From: an uncultured Flavobacteriales bacterium
GTDB lineage: Bacteria > Bacteroidota > Bacteroidia > Flavobacteriales_F > PHOS-HE28
Length of the DNA: 64,000 bases
Assembly (NCBI GenBank): GCA_937872175.1
Contig: CALMPI010000018.1
Location: 62,001 to 126,000 of the forward strand
Direction of reading: 5' to 3'
Each line of letters begins with the position of its first letter. Positions within the stretch are counted from its first letter, which is position 1. Both the position numbers and the translations under genes were made by a program. Shown here piece by piece: positions 23,232-32,817 of this stretch. The notes under the pieces were generated by a model. It was not told the DNA's origin. It made no database searches and saw nothing but the letters and a program-made list of their open reading frames with translations.

Positions 23232-23263
23232 CACCTACGCGAACTGCCGCACGCTGGTGCGGA
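23232..23263. repeat. 32-base direct repeat, copy 2 (native rocD 3' end)
   Basis: It covers the rocD stop codon and the last nine codons. The matching copy is at 22593-22624, with a period of 639 bases. This placement is what a site-specific insertion at the 3' end of a gene leaves behind, because such insertions keep the gene intact. Confidence 0.75.
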
Positions 23264-24536
23264 TGATGTTCACGCACTCCATCAGCTGCTCGGCGGTGAT
23301 CACCAGCGGCGGGGCGAAGCGGATGATGTCGCCGTGGGTGGGCTTGGCCAGCAGGCCGTTGTCGCGCAGGAGCAGGCAAAGCTCCCAGGCGCTCTTCGGG
23401 CTGCCATCCGGCGCCGTGCGGGCTTCGATCACGAGCGCATTCAGCAGCCCGCGGCCGCGCACCAGCTTCACGAAAGGGTACTCCTCCACCAGCTTCCGCA
23501 TCTCGGCACGGAACAACTCACCGAGCCGGTCGGCGTTGCCGCACAGGTCCTCGTCCTGCACGATGCCGAGCGCCTCGATGGCCAGGCGCGCGCCCATGGG
23601 GTTGCCGCCGTAGGTGCTGCCGTGGGTGCCGGGGGTGAAGACGTTCATCACCGCATCGCCGGCCAGCACGGCGCTCACCGGGTACATGCCGCCGCTGAGG
23701 GCCTTGGCGAGGATCACCACATCGGGGCGCTGCACCCCTTCGCGTGCTTCGCAGAGGCCCTTGGTGCAGTGGCAGCCGCTGTGGTGGCAGGAGGCGAGCA
23801 GCCGGCCGGTGCGCGCGATGCCGGTCTGGATCTCGTCCGCGATGAAGAGCACGTTGCGGGCCTTGCAGGCGGCGATGGCGCGGGGGATGTAGTCGTCGGC
23901 CGGCACGTACACGCCTTTCTCCCCCTGGATGGGTTCCACCAGGAAGGCGCAGACGTGCGGGTCCGCCAGCGCCTTCTCCAGCGCAGGGATGTCGTCGTAG
24001 GGGATCACCTCGAAGCCGGGCGTGAAGGGCCCGAAGCCGCCCTGGCTGTCGGGGTCGGTGCTCATGCTGACGATGGTGATGGTGCGGCCGTGGAAGTTGC
24101 CCTCGCACACGATCACCTTCGCCCGCCCCGCCGGGATGCCCTTCTTCTCGTAGCCCCACTTGCGCGCCATCTTGATCGCCGACTCCACCGCCTCGGCGCC
24201 GGTGTTCATGGGCAGCATGCGGTCGTAGCCGAAGAGGGTGCACACGGTGCGGGCGTATTCGCCGAGCACGCTGTTGTAGAAGGCGCGGCTGGTGAGCGTC
24301 ATGCGCGTGGCCTGCTCCTGCATCACCTTCACGAGGCGCGGGTGGCAGTGGCCCTGGTTCACGGCGCTGTAGGCGCTGAGGAAGTCGTAGTAGCGCTTGC
24401 CTTCCACATCCCACACGAACACGCCCTTGCCGCTGTCGAGCACCACCGGAAGGGGGTGGTAGTTGTGGGCCCCGTAGTGCTCCTCGAGCTCGATGGCCTG
24501 CTGGGTGCGGGTGCGGATGCTGGACTGGATCGACAT
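23235..24536 (-). CDS. rocD: Ornithine--oxo-acid aminotransferase with a Cys/His-rich insertion
   Basis: The 433-residue class III PLP aminotransferase converts L-ornithine and 2-oxoglutarate to glutamate semialdehyde and glutamate. Key parts are [43 protein letters not shown], the PLP lysine Lys278 in ILAKALSGG, and [12 protein letters not shown]. Between RTGRLLA and PDVVILAK the usual short CDHE-type linker is replaced by about 20 residues containing four Cys and three His (residues 249-268). ATG 24536 is chosen from the conserved N-terminus. The gene is flanked by two toxin-antitoxin modules, and the 3' end is duplicated at 22593. Confidence 0.93.
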
Positions 24537-24569
24537 GGCTGGAAGGACGGGCGTTTCTTGGGGAAGCGG

Positions 24570-24577
24570 CAAAACTA
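24570..24577 (-). promoter_or_regulatory. TAnnTTTG -7 box for rocD
   Basis: The minus strand reads TAGTTTTG, a perfect match to TAnnTTTG, 33 bases before the rocD ATG. This gives a short leader of roughly 30 bases and makes rocD independent of the upstream toxin-antitoxin pair. Confidence 0.55.
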
Positions 24578-24626
24578 GGGCTTCGGGGCCGTGCGTTCGG
24601 CGAACCTCCAGGTCATGCGACATTCC

Positions 24627-24956
24627 CTATTCCGGTATCCAGCTCAGCAATTGTTCCAACTCCTTGTCCGAAAGCGTATCGCGCTCCGCCTTGTCGTAGA
24701 GCGCCAGCAGATGCACCGTGTCGCCTGCCACATGAACATGCGTGATCACCCTGCCTCCACCGCTCTTCCCGCGGCCTTTCGACGTGATCGACAGTCGGAC
24801 CTTGTAGCAGTCCTTCCCGAGGGACTTCCCGATGAAGGGGTCACGCTCCAGGATGGCACCCAAGGTTGCGACGTCCTTCTTCAAGGAAGGATACTTCTTC
24901 AAGAGCCGTTTCAGGTCGCGCTGGAAGGGCCGCAGCGCAATGACCTCAAAGCTCAT
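24627..24956 (-). CDS. RelE-family mRNA interferase-like toxin (second TA module)
   Basis: The 109-residue basic protein has RPFQRDLKRLLKKYPSLKKDVATLG, CYKVRLSITSKGRGKSGGGRVITHV and LLALYDKAERDTLSDKELEQLL. This is the pattern of the RelE/HigB-like group that includes YafQ-like and Bacteroidota toxins. The N-terminus overlaps the antitoxin gene by 11 bases. It belongs to a different branch from the first toxin at 22652. Confidence 0.82.
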   Translation of the reverse strand: MSFEVIALRPFQRDLKRLLKKYPSLKKDVATLGAILERDPFIGKSLGKDCYKVRLSITSKGRGKSGGGRVITHVHVAGDTVHLLALYDKAERDTLSDKELEQLLSWIPE

Positions 24957-27374: not shown

Positions 27375-28445
27375 CTACTCCACCACCTTGTCGATGTAGC
27401 GGGAGTTCATCACCCCCAGCGCGCCCATGTACCGCAGCTTGAAGCTCATCACCGCGCCCACCCGGTAGTCGTGCGGGCTGTCGCCCAGATCGACCACCAG
27501 CATGTCGCTGCTGGCCTCGATGATGTGCACATGCTCGTCCTCGGGGATGAGGAAGCCCGGTTGCACATCGAGCAGGCCGATGTCGAGGATGGCCCGGTAC
27601 GAGGTGCGCCCCCGGTCGGCCGCATCGAACTCCGGCCTGTGGCCCGATGGGTTCTCCGCCTGCACCCCGATGGGCACCACCGGTTTCTCGTAGAGCTCGA
27701 TCACTTCGGCGAAGAGCATGAACACATCGGCCTCCATGCCGGGCAGCACGCCCCCGGTGAACAGGTCGGCCCCGAAGAAGAGCGCCTCGCCGATGCGGAA
27801 GTGGTTGATCCCCTTGGGCAGCTCCCTGTTCAACATCAGCGGCACGGTGACGGTGGTGCCGCCGCTCACCCAGGGGATCACGCGGTCGAAGCGGGCCTCG
27901 ATGAGCTGCTTGTAGAGGCTGAGCTGGATGAGCTTGTCCGCGCTCGGCATGATGCCGTTGAGGCAGTTGAGGTTGGTGCCCAGCCCGATGATCTCGATCC
28001 CCGGCAACTGGAACACCTGCGCGTAGAAGTCCGTGAGGTGTTCGCCCATCACACCCTCGCGCAGGTCGCCCATCTCCACCATGATGATGATCTTGTGCTG
28101 GCGGTCCTGCTTCACCGCCTCCTCGCTCAGCCCCTTGATGGTGAAGAGGTCCGTGTTGAAGCTCACGTCCGCATAGCGCACCACGCTGGCGATGCTGCGT
28201 TTCGCGGGGGGCTTGATGTAGACGGTCTGCACCCCGGGCGCGATGGCCTTGATCGCCTTCAGGTTGCTGATGCGCGTGTCGTGCATCTCGGTGATGCCCA
28301 GGTCCACCAGCTCCTGCAGGTAGGTGCGGTTGCCGCAGAGGAGCTTGGTGACCACACCCCACGCGATGCCGTTGCCGTCGAACCAGCGCTGCAGCACGGC
28401 GTGGTTCCTCCGCAGCTTGTCGCGATAGAGCTTCAGGTAAGCCAT
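27375..28445 (-). CDS. Alanine/ornithine-racemase-family PLP enzyme
   Basis: The 356-residue fold type III PLP enzyme has the lysine region AWGVVTKLLCGN (VTKxxCG pattern of ornithine-racemase-like enzymes), MHDTRISNLKAIK, IIIMVEMGDLREGV, GLGTNLNCLNG and INHFRIGEALFFG. In the characterised branch the enzyme interconverts D- and L-ornithine; substrate specificity cannot be read directly. It is the last gene of a five-gene leftward operon, starting 3 bases after the canonical alanine racemase gene. Confidence 0.85.
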   Translation of the reverse strand: MAYLKLYRDKLRRNHAVLQRWFDGNGIAWGVVTKLLCGNRTYLQELVDLGITEMHDTRISNLKAIKAIAPGVQTVYIKPPAKRSIASVVRYADVSFNTDLFTIKGLSEEAVKQDRQHKIIIMVEMGDLREGVMGEHLTDFYAQVFQLPGIEIIGLGTNLNCLNGIMPSADKLIQLSLYKQLIEARFDRVIPWVSGGTTVTVPLMLNRELPKGINHFRIGEALFFGADLFTGGVLPGMEADVFMLFAEVIELYEKPVVPIGVQAENPSGHRPEFDAADRGRTSYRAILDIGLLDVQPGFLIPEDEHVHIIEASSDMLVVDLGDSPHDYRVGAVMSFKLRYMGALGVMNSRYIDKVVE

Positions 28446-28448
28446 GGT

Positions 28449-29597
28449 TCAGGGGATGACCGTCCGTGGGATGTCGCGCGGCAGGCGCGTCAGCAGCTCG
28501 TAGTTGAGCTGTTCGCTCAGTTCGCTGAAGCTGGCCACCGTGATGCGATGGTCGCCCTGCTCACCGATCAGGACGACCTCATCGCCCTTCTCCACGCCCG
28601 GGATGTCGGTGATGTCCACGCTGATGGCGTTCATGTTGACGATGCCGGCGACCCGCGCCTGCTGCCCGCGCACCAGCACACGGCCCAGGTTGCTGAGCCC
28701 GCGGTCGAAGCCGTGCGCGTAGCCCACCGGCACCACGGCGATGCGCATGTCGTGCGCCGCTTCACTGCTGGTGCCATATCCGATGAAGCCGCCCGCCGCC
28801 ACGCTGGTGATGGCCATGACGCGGCTCTTCCAGCCGATGAGGCGCTTGAGCGGATCGGTGGACGCACCGCTCACCGCGCTGTAGCGGAACCAGGTCTCCT
28901 GGTTGGGCCAGAAGCCGTACTGCATGATGCCGACGCGCGCCATCGGCCCCACCGTATGCGGATAGTTCATCACGGCCGCACTGCACGCCTGGTGGGCATA
29001 GGCCGGATGCAGGCCGGCCTGCCGGAACCGGGCCCGCGCCGCGTCGAAGTGCGCCATCTGGGCGGTGACGCGCTGATCGTTGCTGCTGCTCTCCGCCCCG
29101 GCGAAATGGGTGAAGAGGCCCATCAGCTCGATGTGCTCGTCATGGGCGCGCATCAGGTCCAGCGCGGGTCCCAGCGCGGTGCGGTCGAAGCCGGTGCGGT
29201 GCATGCCGGTCTCCACCTCGATGTGGATGCGCGCCTTGCGCTTCTGCCTGCCCGCCTCGCCGATGGCCTGCTCCAGCCGGTCCCGGTCGTGCACGCAGAA
29301 CTCCACGCCATGCTCCACCGCCCAGGCCAGGCCGTCGCCCTCCACCATGCCCATGATGAAGAGGTCCGGACACTTCCGCAGGTGCTCCACCACATGCCAC
29401 GCTTCATCGGCGGAGTACACCCCGAAGTAGTCGACGCCCTCTTCCATGGCCAGCGGGATGAAGGCGTCCAGGCCATGCCCGTACGCATTGCCCTTCACCA
29501 CGCTGCACAACCGCGCACCGTTGAGCCGCTGACGCAGGAAGGCGAGGTTCCTGCGCATCGCACTACGGCTGATGGTGATGGTGCTCGGTTCGAACAT
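28449..29597 (-). CDS. alr: Alanine racemase
   Basis: The 382-residue protein has the PLP lysine motif VVKGNAYGHG (Lys35; canonical VVKANAYGHG), VETGMHRTGFD, GLFTHFAGAES, RVGIMQYGFWP and the catalytic Tyr region GGFIGYGTSS, then NMNAISVDI. It supplies D-alanine for peptidoglycan, or could act on other amino acids in this operon. The Ala-to-Gly change beside the lysine and the FWP motif are slight departures. It starts directly against the M20 gene stop. Confidence 0.92.
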   Translation of the reverse strand: MFEPSTITISRSAMRRNLAFLRQRLNGARLCSVVKGNAYGHGLDAFIPLAMEEGVDYFGVYSADEAWHVVEHLRKCPDLFIMGMVEGDGLAWAVEHGVEFCVHDRDRLEQAIGEAGRQKRKARIHIEVETGMHRTGFDRTALGPALDLMRAHDEHIELMGLFTHFAGAESSSNDQRVTAQMAHFDAARARFRQAGLHPAYAHQACSAAVMNYPHTVGPMARVGIMQYGFWPNQETWFRYSAVSGASTDPLKRLIGWKSRVMAITSVAAGGFIGYGTSSEAAHDMRIAVVPVGYAHGFDRGLSNLGRVLVRGQQARVAGIVNMNAISVDITDIPGVEKGDEVVLIGEQGDHRITVASFSELSEQLNYELLTRLPRDIPRTVIP

Positions 29598-30764
29598 TCA
29601 GGTCAGTTGGCGGACGATGCGCTCGAACACGGCGATCCCCTGCGGGAGGAGGTCCTCGGGGAAGTCGTAGTCGGGGTTGTGCAGGGCGGGCGTTCCCTCC
29701 CCCGCCCCCAGCCCGAACATGCAACCGGGGAAGCGCTGCGTGAAGAGCCCGAAATCCTCGCCGAACTTGAAGGGATGCTCCGGCACCCGGTGATCGAGCC
29801 CCTCCGCCTCCACGGCCTCGCGCACCAGGTCCACCGTGGCGGCATCGTTGCGGTTGGCGTGGAAGTGCTGGGTGTAGGTGATGTCGAGCTTCAGCCGGTG
29901 CCGCACGCCCACTTCGTTGGCGATGGCCTCCACCTCGCGCTGCAAGCGCTCGAGCTCCGCATCATGCCAGCAGCGCAGGGTGAGATGCACCTCGGCGGAG
30001 CCCGCGCTGATGCCGTAGTCCTTGCTGCCGAGGCGTGCGAACACCGGAGTGACCACCCGCATGTGCGCGTCGGACGGCACGTTGTGGTCCAACGCCAGGC
30101 TGCGGGTGATGAGCTCGCCCATGGCGGCCGCCGGATTGATGCCGTGCTCGGGTTCGGCGGCGTGCGAGGTCCTGCCCTTCAGGGTGATGATGATGCTGTT
30201 GACCGCGGCGGTGAAGCTGTCGGTGCGCAGCATGACCGTGCCCTTGGGGATGCCCGGCAGGTTGTGCAGTGCGAACACGCGATCGAACCGCATCCCCCTC
30301 ACCCGCGGATCCGCCAGCACCGCCTCGGCACCCAGGCCGTTCTCCTCGGCCGGCTGGAACAGCAGCCAGACCCTGCCGCTCGCCGGTCGCTCGGCCGCGA
30401 GCCGCTCGGCCAGCCCGCACAGGATCGCCATGTGGCCATCGTGCCCGCACTTGTGCGAACGCCCCTCGATCGTGGAGCGGTGCGCGAAGTCGTTCTCCTC
30501 CTCGATGGGCAGCGCGTCGAGCTCGCAGCGGAAGAGCAGCTCCGGGCCGTTCAAGCGGCCGCCGAAGCACGCGAGCACGCCCGTGCCGCCCACGTGCGTG
30601 AGCAGCGCATCGGGGGCCAGCACTTCGAGGTAGCGCTTGATGCGGTCCGCGGTCCAGTGCTCCTCCATGGCGGTCTCCGGATGCGCATGAAGTTCTCGAC
30701 GCAGGTAGACCAGCTTCCGCAGCAGGCCATCGTTCACTGGGGAAGGGATGCTCGTCCTCCTCAT
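29598..30764 (-). CDS. M20-family amidohydrolase (N-acyl amino acid deacylase-like)
   Basis: The 388-residue protein is of the M20D group (hippurate/IAA-amino acid/acetyl-diaminopimelate deacylase type). Motifs are LRRELHAHPE, the metal cysteine-histidine motif KCGHDGHMAILCG, LLFQPAEENG and a dimerisation domain with GRTSHAAEPEHGINP. The final metal ligand is in FGLGAGEGTPALHNPDYDF (split as FGLGAGEG and ALHNPDYDF). It removes an acyl group from an amino acid nitrogen. The start overlaps the GNAT stop (ATGA). It sits beside an acetyltransferase and two racemases, so N-acylated or D-amino acids are likely substrates (inference). Confidence 0.87.
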   Translation of the reverse strand: MRRTSIPSPVNDGLLRKLVYLRRELHAHPETAMEEHWTADRIKRYLEVLAPDALLTHVGGTGVLACFGGRLNGPELLFRCELDALPIEEENDFAHRSTIEGRSHKCGHDGHMAILCGLAERLAAERPASGRVWLLFQPAEENGLGAEAVLADPRVRGMRFDRVFALHNLPGIPKGTVMLRTDSFTAAVNSIIITLKGRTSHAAEPEHGINPAAAMGELITRSLALDHNVPSDAHMRVVTPVFARLGSKDYGISAGSAEVHLTLRCWHDAELERLQREVEAIANEVGVRHRLKLDITYTQHFHANRNDAATVDLVREAVEAEGLDHRVPEHPFKFGEDFGLFTQRFPGCMFGLGAGEGTPALHNPDYDFPEDLLPQGIAVFERIVRQLT

Positions 30765-31195
30765 CGGTGCAGACGCATTTCGAGGTACTTGTTGGTGAAG
30801 CCAAGGGCCTCGTAGAGCTTGCGGGCCGGATTGTCCGGCTCCACGTGCAGGGCGACGGCACCCTTCGCGCGTGTGAGCGCCTCCTGCATCAGCGTCCGGC
30901 CCAGGCCCTGCCCGCGCAAGGCGCGGTCCACCGCGATGTACACCAGGATGTTCTCCGGGATGTAGCCGCCCATGCCGGTCTCGTTCACCACCACGGCGCC
31001 CTGGACCGCATCACCGTCCACGGCCAGCACCACGAAGCCACCACGGTGTGGATCGAAGACGTAGGCCAGGCACTTCAGGATGTCCTCCCTGCGGTCACCG
31101 AACTGGTCCAGGTGCACCTCCAGGAAATGTGCGATGCGGTCGTTGGAGAACTGCGGATGCGGCCCGGTGGCGCTGTCCAGGTGGATGAATTCCAT
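30761..31195 (-). CDS. GNAT-family N-acetyltransferase
   Basis: The 144-residue GNAT protein has the acetyl-CoA-binding motif A ALRGQGLGRTLMQEAL and the C-terminal NPARKLYEALGF motif. The N-terminal half (HFLEVHLDQFGDRREDILKCLAYVF) is typical of small GNATs in Bacteroidota. It probably acetylates a small amine or amino acid. It starts one base from the symporter stop and overlaps the M20 gene. Confidence 0.85.
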   Translation of the reverse strand: MEFIHLDSATGPHPQFSNDRIAHFLEVHLDQFGDRREDILKCLAYVFDPHRGGFVVLAVDGDAVQGAVVVNETGMGGYIPENILVYIAVDRALRGQGLGRTLMQEALTRAKGAVALHVEPDNPARKLYEALGFTNKYLEMRLHR

Positions 31196-32644
31196 TCAAG
31201 GGGCGGGTATGGCGGCGGCCCGCCCGGGAACAAGGCGCACCACCGTGGTGAAACAAAGGGCGGACGCCACGATCCCGAAGATGTTGGCGTCCAGGCCCAG
31301 CGGAAGCGGTACGGCGAGCGTGGTGAGCGCCAGGGTGGTGCCACCGCCGACGACCATGGATGCGAGCGCGGCCGGTGCATGCCGCTGCCCAAGGAAGACC
31401 GCGGCCACCAGCGGCACCAGCAGCCCGCTGACCATGAAGGCGTAGCTGTGCAGCATCAGCGTGAGCACGTTCTCCATGGTGCCGGCCAGGACCAGGGCCA
31501 CCAGTCCGAGCACCAGCGTGAAGACCTGCGATAACCGGAGCTGGTGCTTCACCGGCATGTCCTGCCGCTTTCGCAGCACGATGTCCGTGAGCAGGTTGCC
31601 GCTGGCCGCCATCAGGCAGCTGTCGGCCGTGGACAGGATGGCGCTGAAGTAGGCGGCCAGCACCACGCCCATCAGCCCCACGGGCAGGATGGTGCGCAGC
31701 AGCAGCGGCAGCCCGATCTCGGGGTCCATCCCACCCGCACCGAGCGGGAAGAGCGCTGTGAACATCCCCTGTTCGGCCGCCACCCTGGCGAGCAGGCCGA
31801 GGACGACACCGAGGAAGGCCATCACCGGCCACTCGAACAACCCGGCGATGAACCAGGCCTGCCGGGCCTCGCGTTCGCTGCGGCTGGCGTAGATGCGCTG
31901 GTAGAGCGTCATGCCCACGAACCAGATGGGCACGATGGTGATGGCCCAGTTGAGCAGTTGCACCGGCCGAACGTGGTCCAAGGCCAGCAGTTCGGGCGCG
32001 AGCGTGGCACTGATCGCCTCCCATCCGCCCACGGCCTGCCACGAGAGCGGGAGCGCGACGAAGATCAAGCCGGCCAGCAGCACCACCCATTGCACGGTAT
32101 CGGTGTGGATCACCGCGCTCATGCCGCCCAGCGCCGTGTACACGATGGCGATGGCGCCCATCACCACCAGCGCCGTGTGCAGGTCGAGGCCCACCACGGC
32201 CGCGGAGGCGAGCTTGGCACCGGCCAGGATCTGCGAACTGGTGAAGCCCAGGTAGCCGACCACCGAGATGATGCCCGCGACAAGCGCGACACGACCGTCG
32301 TAGAAATGGCCGAAGAGCTGGGGAAAGGTGAGCAGCCGCTGTGCACTACCCAGCGCGTATACCCGCGGGATCAGCAGCACGGCGGCCAGCCAGGCGCCGA
32401 TCAATCCGGTGAAGAGCATCCAGGAGCCGCTGAGGCCCATCGCGAAGCCGAGCCCACCCAGACCGATGGAAAATCCACCGCCCACATCGGTGGCCACCAC
32501 GGACAGCCCGATGTGCCAGCGGCCCATGTTGCGTCCGCTGACGAAGTAGTCCTCGGCGCTGGCGTTCCTCCGCATGTGGAACACACCCACGGCCACCAGG
32601 AGGACCATGTAAAGGAGGAAAATACCGGCGTCGATCCAGTGCAA
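31196..32644 (-). CDS. Sodium:solute symporter (SSS family)
   Basis: The protein has about 482 residues with some 13 membrane helices. Family marks are VAVGVFHMRRNASAEDYFVSGRNMG near the N-terminus (short form: DYFVSGRNMG), ATDVGGGFSIGLGG, and AILSTADSCLMAASGNLLTDIV. It moves a solute with sodium across the inner membrane; neighbours suggest an amino acid or derivative. The start is uncertain. TTG at 32644 gives the usual N-terminus (HWIDAGIFLLYMVLL), and upstream codons look non-coding and run into a promoter box. First gene of the racemase operon. Confidence 0.86.
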   Translation of the reverse strand: MHWIDAGIFLLYMVLLVAVGVFHMRRNASAEDYFVSGRNMGRWHIGLSVVATDVGGGFSIGLGGLGFAMGLSGSWMLFTGLIGAWLAAVLLIPRVYALGSAQRLLTFPQLFGHFYDGRVALVAGIISVVGYLGFTSSQILAGAKLASAAVVGLDLHTALVVMGAIAIVYTALGGMSAVIHTDTVQWVVLLAGLIFVALPLSWQAVGGWEAISATLAPELLALDHVRPVQLLNWAITIVPIWFVGMTLYQRIYASRSEREARQAWFIAGLFEWPVMAFLGVVLGLLARVAAEQGMFTALFPLGAGGMDPEIGLPLLLRTILPVGLMGVVLAAYFSAILSTADSCLMAASGNLLTDIVLRKRQDMPVKHQLRLSQVFTLVLGLVALVLAGTMENVLTLMLHSYAFMVSGLLVPLVAAVFLGQRHAPAALASMVVGGGTTLALTTLAVPLPLGLDANIFGIVASALCFTTVVRLVPGRAAAIPAP

Positions 32645-32728
32645 CTCGTTCGGTTCAGAAGGTGACGGCCCATGGCACCCGCAGGTGGAGGACCGGAAAG
32701 GGCACGCATCGCGCGCCAAGGAGCTGCG

Positions 32729-32736
32729 CAAAGATA
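32729..32736 (-). promoter_or_regulatory. TAnnTTTG -7 box for the symporter-racemase operon
   Basis: The minus strand reads TATCTTTG, a perfect match. It is about 85 bases before the proposed symporter start, which leaves a 5' leader of roughly 75-80 bases, longer than most in this window. Confidence 0.55.
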
Positions 32737-32817
32737 GCCCGATCGCCGGGACCCGGTCGCGGGTGCCGTGCACCGTGCCGCACAGCGATGCACGACGGAT
32801 GTCCCGACCTTCGGGCC

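Follow-up and report, generated by a model that had tools for sequence, protein, structure and literature searches.

What does a cell gain by placing two amino acid racemases in a single operon with a transporter, an acetyltransferase and a deacylase? The question is raised by positions 27375-32736 of a 64,000-nucleotide stretch of contig CALMPI010000018.1, from an uncultured Flavobacteriales bacterium; the whole of this stretch is called the window here. We propose that the operon probably handles D- or acylated lysine- or ornithine-like amino acids for nutrition. For the fuller statement, that it serves to scavenge basic (diamino) or N-acylated amino acids as nutrients, we put the probability at roughly 45%.

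Operon structure

The five genes are a real operon, one gene set in one orientation. Their products, and the promoter element in front of them, are as follows.

31196-32644, minus strand: SSS-family sodium:solute symporter, 482 residues, TTG start (SSF, PF00474, 151 bits)
30761-31195, minus strand: GNAT acetyltransferase, 144 residues, acetyl-CoA loop residues R94/G97/G99 invariant (PF00583)
29598-30764, minus strand: M20 amidohydrolase, similar to YxeP and indole-3-acetic acid (IAA)-amino acid hydrolases, 388 residues (TIGR01891)
28449-29597, minus strand: Alr-like fold-III pyridoxal phosphate (PLP) racemase, here ALR, 382 residues (alr, TIGR00492)
27375-28445, minus strand: Orr-like fold-III PLP racemase, here ORR, 356 residues, K34 invariant (Orr model NF040742)
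32729-32736, minus strand: TAnnTTTG promoter element TATCTTTG, an enriched motif whose position is kept in sister loci

All five open reading frames (ORFs) are intact and lie on the minus strand with clean starts and stops, in the order SSS, GNAT, M20, ALR, ORR. SSS and GNAT abut (0 nucleotides), GNAT and M20 overlap by 4 nucleotides, M20 and ALR abut (0 nucleotides), and 3 nucleotides separate ALR from ORR, so that the array, gene order and tight spacing claimed in the original prediction, a reading of the letters alone, are borne out. Its family assignments were upheld by profile searches: SSF, GNAT, M20, alr and Orr-like, the last below the Orr cut-off.

The TAnnTTTG box that had been claimed is also present, as TATCTTTG. 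It lies 92 nucleotides upstream of the probable TTG start of the symporter gene at 32644, and three of the four sister loci (L023, L025 and L026; L numbers denote our loci) likewise have a box at 92-95 nucleotides. More broadly, a box is located within 200 nucleotides of the SSS gene in 26 of 74 cases, versus 9% of random stretches. The window holds 12 copies of TAnnTTTG where shuffles predict 2.8, and because of this fourfold enrichment we judge the Bacteroidota -7 element to be readable even at the window's 66% G+C. No -33 element was seen by eye upstream of the operon. In the operon region no sigma-70 type promoters were found, and terminator-like matches occur only at chance level. There is no riboswitch leader, two tRNAs being the only features of the window that reach Rfam thresholds.

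Conservation of the gene set

Is the association of these genes more than an accident of one chromosome? In a synteny survey we took loci from 80 named GTDB contigs and clustered 76 ORR loci, among which GNAT adjoins or lies near ORR in 65, SSS in 47, M20 in 34 and ALR in 33. M20 and ALR act as a cassette, placed between GNAT and ORR as in the window, after ORR, or elsewhere in the genome. The order SSS-GNAT-M20-ALR-ORR is that of the window and many other loci, GNAT-ORR-SSS-M20-ALR is that of family f59 (L157, L161, L165, L167), and SSS-GNAT-ORR-M23-M20-ALR is that of families f66, f64 and f85 (L136, L141, L142, L210, L214), some f64 members being not fully linked. That the same genes stay together while their order is shuffled strongly suggests a common function.

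Co-occurrence was scored in 395 genomes of the phylum, with strong matches counted for ORR and thresholds of E <= 1e-75 for ALR and E <= 1e-60 for M20. ORR is present in 63 genomes, ALR in 43 and M20 in 65. Every one of the 43 ALR genomes, from 8 families, also has ORR, and 42 have M20; in 15 of the 43, ALR and ORR are unlinked in the assembly, some of them on short contigs. It is difficult to see how such a one-way dependence of ALR on ORR, unlinked cases included, could arise unless the two share a pathway. The M20 relatives examined in ORR-less genomes have no ALR after them. Within the genus of the window organism ORR is patchy, occurring in 12 of 44 other genomes, and several of the negatives are nearly complete. 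Both the conserved synteny and the co-occurrence thus speak strongly for one transcription unit joining import, deacylation and racemization.

Contigs labelled as Rickettsiales and Bacteriovoracaceae metagenome-assembled genomes (L038, L069) also bear the module, through mis-binning or gene transfer. A search for plasmid-borne spread gave no near PLSDB match.

The two racemases

ORR has the fold of the fold-III PLP racemases, and its PLP lysine, K34, is invariant in 37 sequences, including that of the L171 relative. The predicted structure of ORR (pLDDT confidence score 95) aligns along its entire length with alanine, broad-specificity (Bar) and lysine racemases, with Z scores of about 27-28 at 13-14% identity, and a single-sequence search found no related solved structure. 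A role for ORR other than racemization was also considered, on the model of the FigC-type enzymes, which are Alr-fold decarboxylases (PMC7857480).

Is ALR an alanine racemase? It scores 243 bits against TIGR00492 (cut-off 168), and its PLP lysine K35, catalytic tyrosine Y274, carboxylate arginine R134 and inner-gate tyrosine Y366 are invariant in 29 Alr-like family members. Neither of the conserved active-site aspartates of Alr is present, however: H295 stands for D285 of GsAlr, and N323, itself invariant, stands for D313. These aspartates are D294 and D322 in MtAlr; Asn at the D313/D322 position, the Bsr-type residue, is natural in broad-spectrum racemases, and the D322N change confers D-cycloserine resistance in M. 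tuberculosis (PMC10288493). Because His and an invariant Asn replace the two Asp of true Alr, the name alanine racemase is doubtful for the operon's protein. Its N-terminus begins MFEPSTITISRSAM, with no evident signal peptide.

The original prediction noted that this was the only visible alr, and asked whether it also serves cell-wall synthesis. The first statement holds for the window and fails for the genome. The 4.3 Mb assembly, 99.99% complete, encodes four proteins with an Ala_racemase_N domain: the two of the operon, a 225-residue protein consistent with the small PLP-binding (YggS) type, and a 962-residue frame on another contig. The last, a MurF-Alr fusion, is intact; its KAFGYG, GYGR, GYADG and CMDM motifs are canonical, and it keeps both Asp residues. 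A second housekeeping alr had been named as part of what would refute the proposal, and that part has been found. Since the genome carries the intact fusion elsewhere, the housekeeping worry is settled: to judge from the fusion and from the His and Asn of ALR, the operon is not the cell's source of wall D-alanine.

Transporter, acetyltransferase and deacylase

The symporter belongs to the SSF superfamily, and its score against the nearest NCBIfam equivalog, PutP (TIGR02121), is 140 bits versus a cut-off of 515. Mechanically the ORF begins with a GTG at 32773, upstream of the box; because homologues begin at an MHWID-type site, the start is probably the TTG at 32644. GNAT is predicted (pLDDT 95) to have the usual fold of its family, with Z scores of about 15, and the fold comparison singles out no acceptor, many GNAT proteins being tied at Z 14-15. 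M20 scores 219 bits against TIGR01891 (subfamily cut-off 153.75), and the metal-site motifs CGHDGH, EEN and HN are present in its translation.

Neighboring genes

What do the neighbors say about substrates? One gene of interest in the window lies outside the operon, beyond an opposite-strand rumA-like gene:

23235-24623, minus strand: ornithine--oxo-acid transaminase (OAT; TIGR01885)

Both the window lineage and 12 genomes of family f66 carry OAT no more than about 6.5 kb from ORR, and in some f66 genomes an L-lysine 6-transaminase gene (TIGR03251) adjoins the module. Upstream of MarR and the module, L068 has a KamA-family radical SAM gene and a gene for a possibly Kal-like hotdog protein. The L171 relative of ORR, which scores 506 bits against NF040742 and so exceeds the cut-off of 480, lies in a D-ornithine fermentation cluster with genes for diaminopentanoate dehydrogenase (ord), an OrtB-like PLP protein, OraS, OraE and MutL. 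An HDAC-superfamily deacetylase gene sits next to the module in L069, L091 and L094, and in L069 it overlaps M20 by 7 nucleotides. Taken together, the neighbors appear to favor lysine- or ornithine-type compounds and acyl-group chemistry, and they seem to point to ornithine or lysine rather than to the production of N-acetyl-D-amino acids.

Further associations deserve mention. The Lutibacter maritimus locus reads hydroxyproline genes, MarR, GNAT, SSS, M20, ALR, argB, argD, argC, argJ, ORR; hydroxyproline breakdown, MarR, the module and a second argBDCJ set thus form a single run (L218:473-10454), and another argC is located in a separate arginine-type operon. An M23-domain protein, with no evident signal peptide, is encoded between ORR and M20-ALR in f66, f64 and f85 (L136:10610-11194, L141:8898-9539), and the L141 copy matches the middle (M23) domain of PRK06148, presumably a kinase-M23-aminotransferase fusion. 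A protein of about 127 residues is encoded between MarR and SSS (L068:3337-3717, L091:3163-3543), and its L080 homologue has no Pfam match. A universal stress protein-like gene lies directly upstream of GNAT-ORR in L151, L153, L154 and L155, and an AraC-type regulator gene follows ORR in L151. In the window, a RelE-like ORF (24627-24956, minus strand) just upstream of OAT scores 25.7 bits where the Pfam gathering score is 27; it is a possible toxin-antitoxin remnant.

Proposed pathway and alternatives

How might the five proteins work together? The symporter would import a neutral amino acid derivative, and M20 would strip off its N-acyl group, or split a dipeptide-like amide. The two fold-III PLP racemases would interconvert the D and L forms, the Orr-like enzyme acting on ornithine and perhaps lysine, the Alr-related enzyme having an active site of the broad-spectrum type. 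The resulting L-ornithine or L-lysine would enter OAT or related catabolism. GNAT may acetylate one enantiomer or a side chain, as a trap or a detoxification step. Here we infer the substrates, the direction and the GNAT step. GNAT and M20 must act at different positions or on different enantiomers, or a futile cycle results.

Several points weigh against nutrient scavenging of this kind. ORR scores 308 bits against NF040742, well below the cut-off of 480, and shares only about 33% identity with the L171 Orr. Basic amino acids are an unusual cargo for SSS carriers. An operon that encodes both a GNAT and a deacylase could be running a futile cycle. The links to neighboring genes come from few independent lineages, and the naive probability for the confinement of ALR to ORR genomes, about 2e-42, ignores phylogeny. 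Finally, the argBDCJ set of Lutibacter would fit synthesis no less than catabolism, and the direction of flux can be read in two ways, the Lutibacter context seeming to argue for synthesis and the other contexts for breakdown.

One variant, a two-racemase pathway that is so far undescribed, would have the Orr-like and Bsr-like enzymes act in series, with GNAT and M20, on the same diamino acid, giving a one-way stereo-inversion of D-diamino acids; one enzyme might, for example, act on free ornithine or lysine and the other on the side-chain-acetylated form. We regard this variant as rather unlikely. A biosynthetic role, which we likewise think improbable, at perhaps one chance in several, would have L-ornithine or lysine racemized to the D form, which would next be acetylated or exported, the outcome being a non-canonical D-amino acid for the wall or a secreted product. 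The extra argB-argD-argC-argJ genes that Lutibacter has between ALR and ORR, despite the argC of its arginine-type operon, would suit such a role, as would the broad-spectrum-like active site of ALR. Most other neighbors, however, are catabolic (OAT, lysine 6-transaminase, the KamA family, the hydroxyproline genes), no ligase or exporter is linked, and SSS transporters are as a rule importers.

Might the racemases act instead on hydroxylysine or its derivatives, in catabolism of collagen-type amino acids such as hydroxyproline and hydroxylysine? Genes for 4-hydroxyproline epimerase (591 bits), a D-amino acid dehydrogenase-like protein, a DapA-like protein and an aldehyde dehydrogenase do precede the Lutibacter module, MarR separating the two, and the M23 partner in f66, f64 and f85 has its match in PRK06148. 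But the link between hydroxyproline genes and ORR is limited to Lutibacter among the loci examined, and PRK06148, with its presumed fusion architecture, has an unproven substrate; we consider this explanation distinctly unlikely. More doubtful still is detoxification of D-amino acids or amino acid antibiotics, in which GNAT would acetylate the compound and ALR would tolerate D-cycloserine-like molecules. The Asn of ALR does occupy the position of the M. tuberculosis resistance mutation, and the GNAT fold is near antibiotic acetyltransferases, among many others. That Asn is natural in broad-spectrum racemases, however, and their tolerance of D-cycloserine is unknown (PMC10288493); moreover a symporter and a deacylase would not be expected, and there is no PADLOC match. 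For the same lack of a PADLOC match a defense system was rejected. Housekeeping supply of D-alanine for peptidoglycan is highly improbable and already largely refuted, since ALR, which does exceed the TIGR00492 cut-off, has an altered active site and is never found without ORR, ORR and hence the operon is missing from many complete genomes of the genus, and the canonical fusion lies elsewhere.

Nutrient scavenging of diamino or N-acylated amino acids is thus the reading we prefer. The spread of the gene set across many Bacteroidota families, with the strict one-way dependence between its racemases, implies a metabolic route that current labels such as alanine racemase and amidohydrolase hide, and that bears on the recycling of D- and acylated amino acids by environmental and sludge bacteria. 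A caution also follows: the Alr-like gene is not to be tallied as a cell-wall alr.

Relation to known systems

In the open-licence papers searched we found no description of the five-gene set, apparently an undescribed combination built from known families. RacX of Halocola ammonii (PMC12838360) was considered as a prior report and rejected, as this EcL-DER-like racemase, of about 27 kDa, belongs to another family.

Which known systems come closest? One is the D-to-L pathway of N-succinylamino acid racemase, GNAT and M20 of Sakai et al. 2006, which PMC8762209 cites. In it an acyltransferase, a racemase and an M20 hydrolase occur together, as they do in the operon. The pathway of Sakai et al. 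2006 reportedly employs an enolase-superfamily racemase acting on N-acyl amino acids, whereas both operon racemases are fold-III PLP enzymes. As PLP racemases need a free alpha-amine, the enolase-type route is not literally transferable. The operon M20 shares the TIGR01891 subfamily with the YxeP and IAA-amino acid hydrolases, YxeP and ILL2 being its best solved relatives, and differs from the named M20 types in falling under all equivalog cut-offs (DoeB2, CpsA, ArgE, DapE). The window ORR is homologous from end to end to the model of the clostridial Orr, which acts in D-ornithine degradation (PMC8803604); unlike the clostridial cluster (orr, oraS, oraE, ord, ortAB), it has no adjoining aminomutase and is joined instead to SSS, GNAT, M20 and ALR. 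ALR, in turn, shares the PLP lysine, catalytic Tyr and carboxylate Arg with Alr/DadX and the broad-spectrum racemases (BsrV, Bar, Lyr), and with Bsr the Asn at the D313/D322 position. It departs from this group in its His for D285 and its strict Orr-like partner, and it has no evident signal peptide and no MurF fusion.

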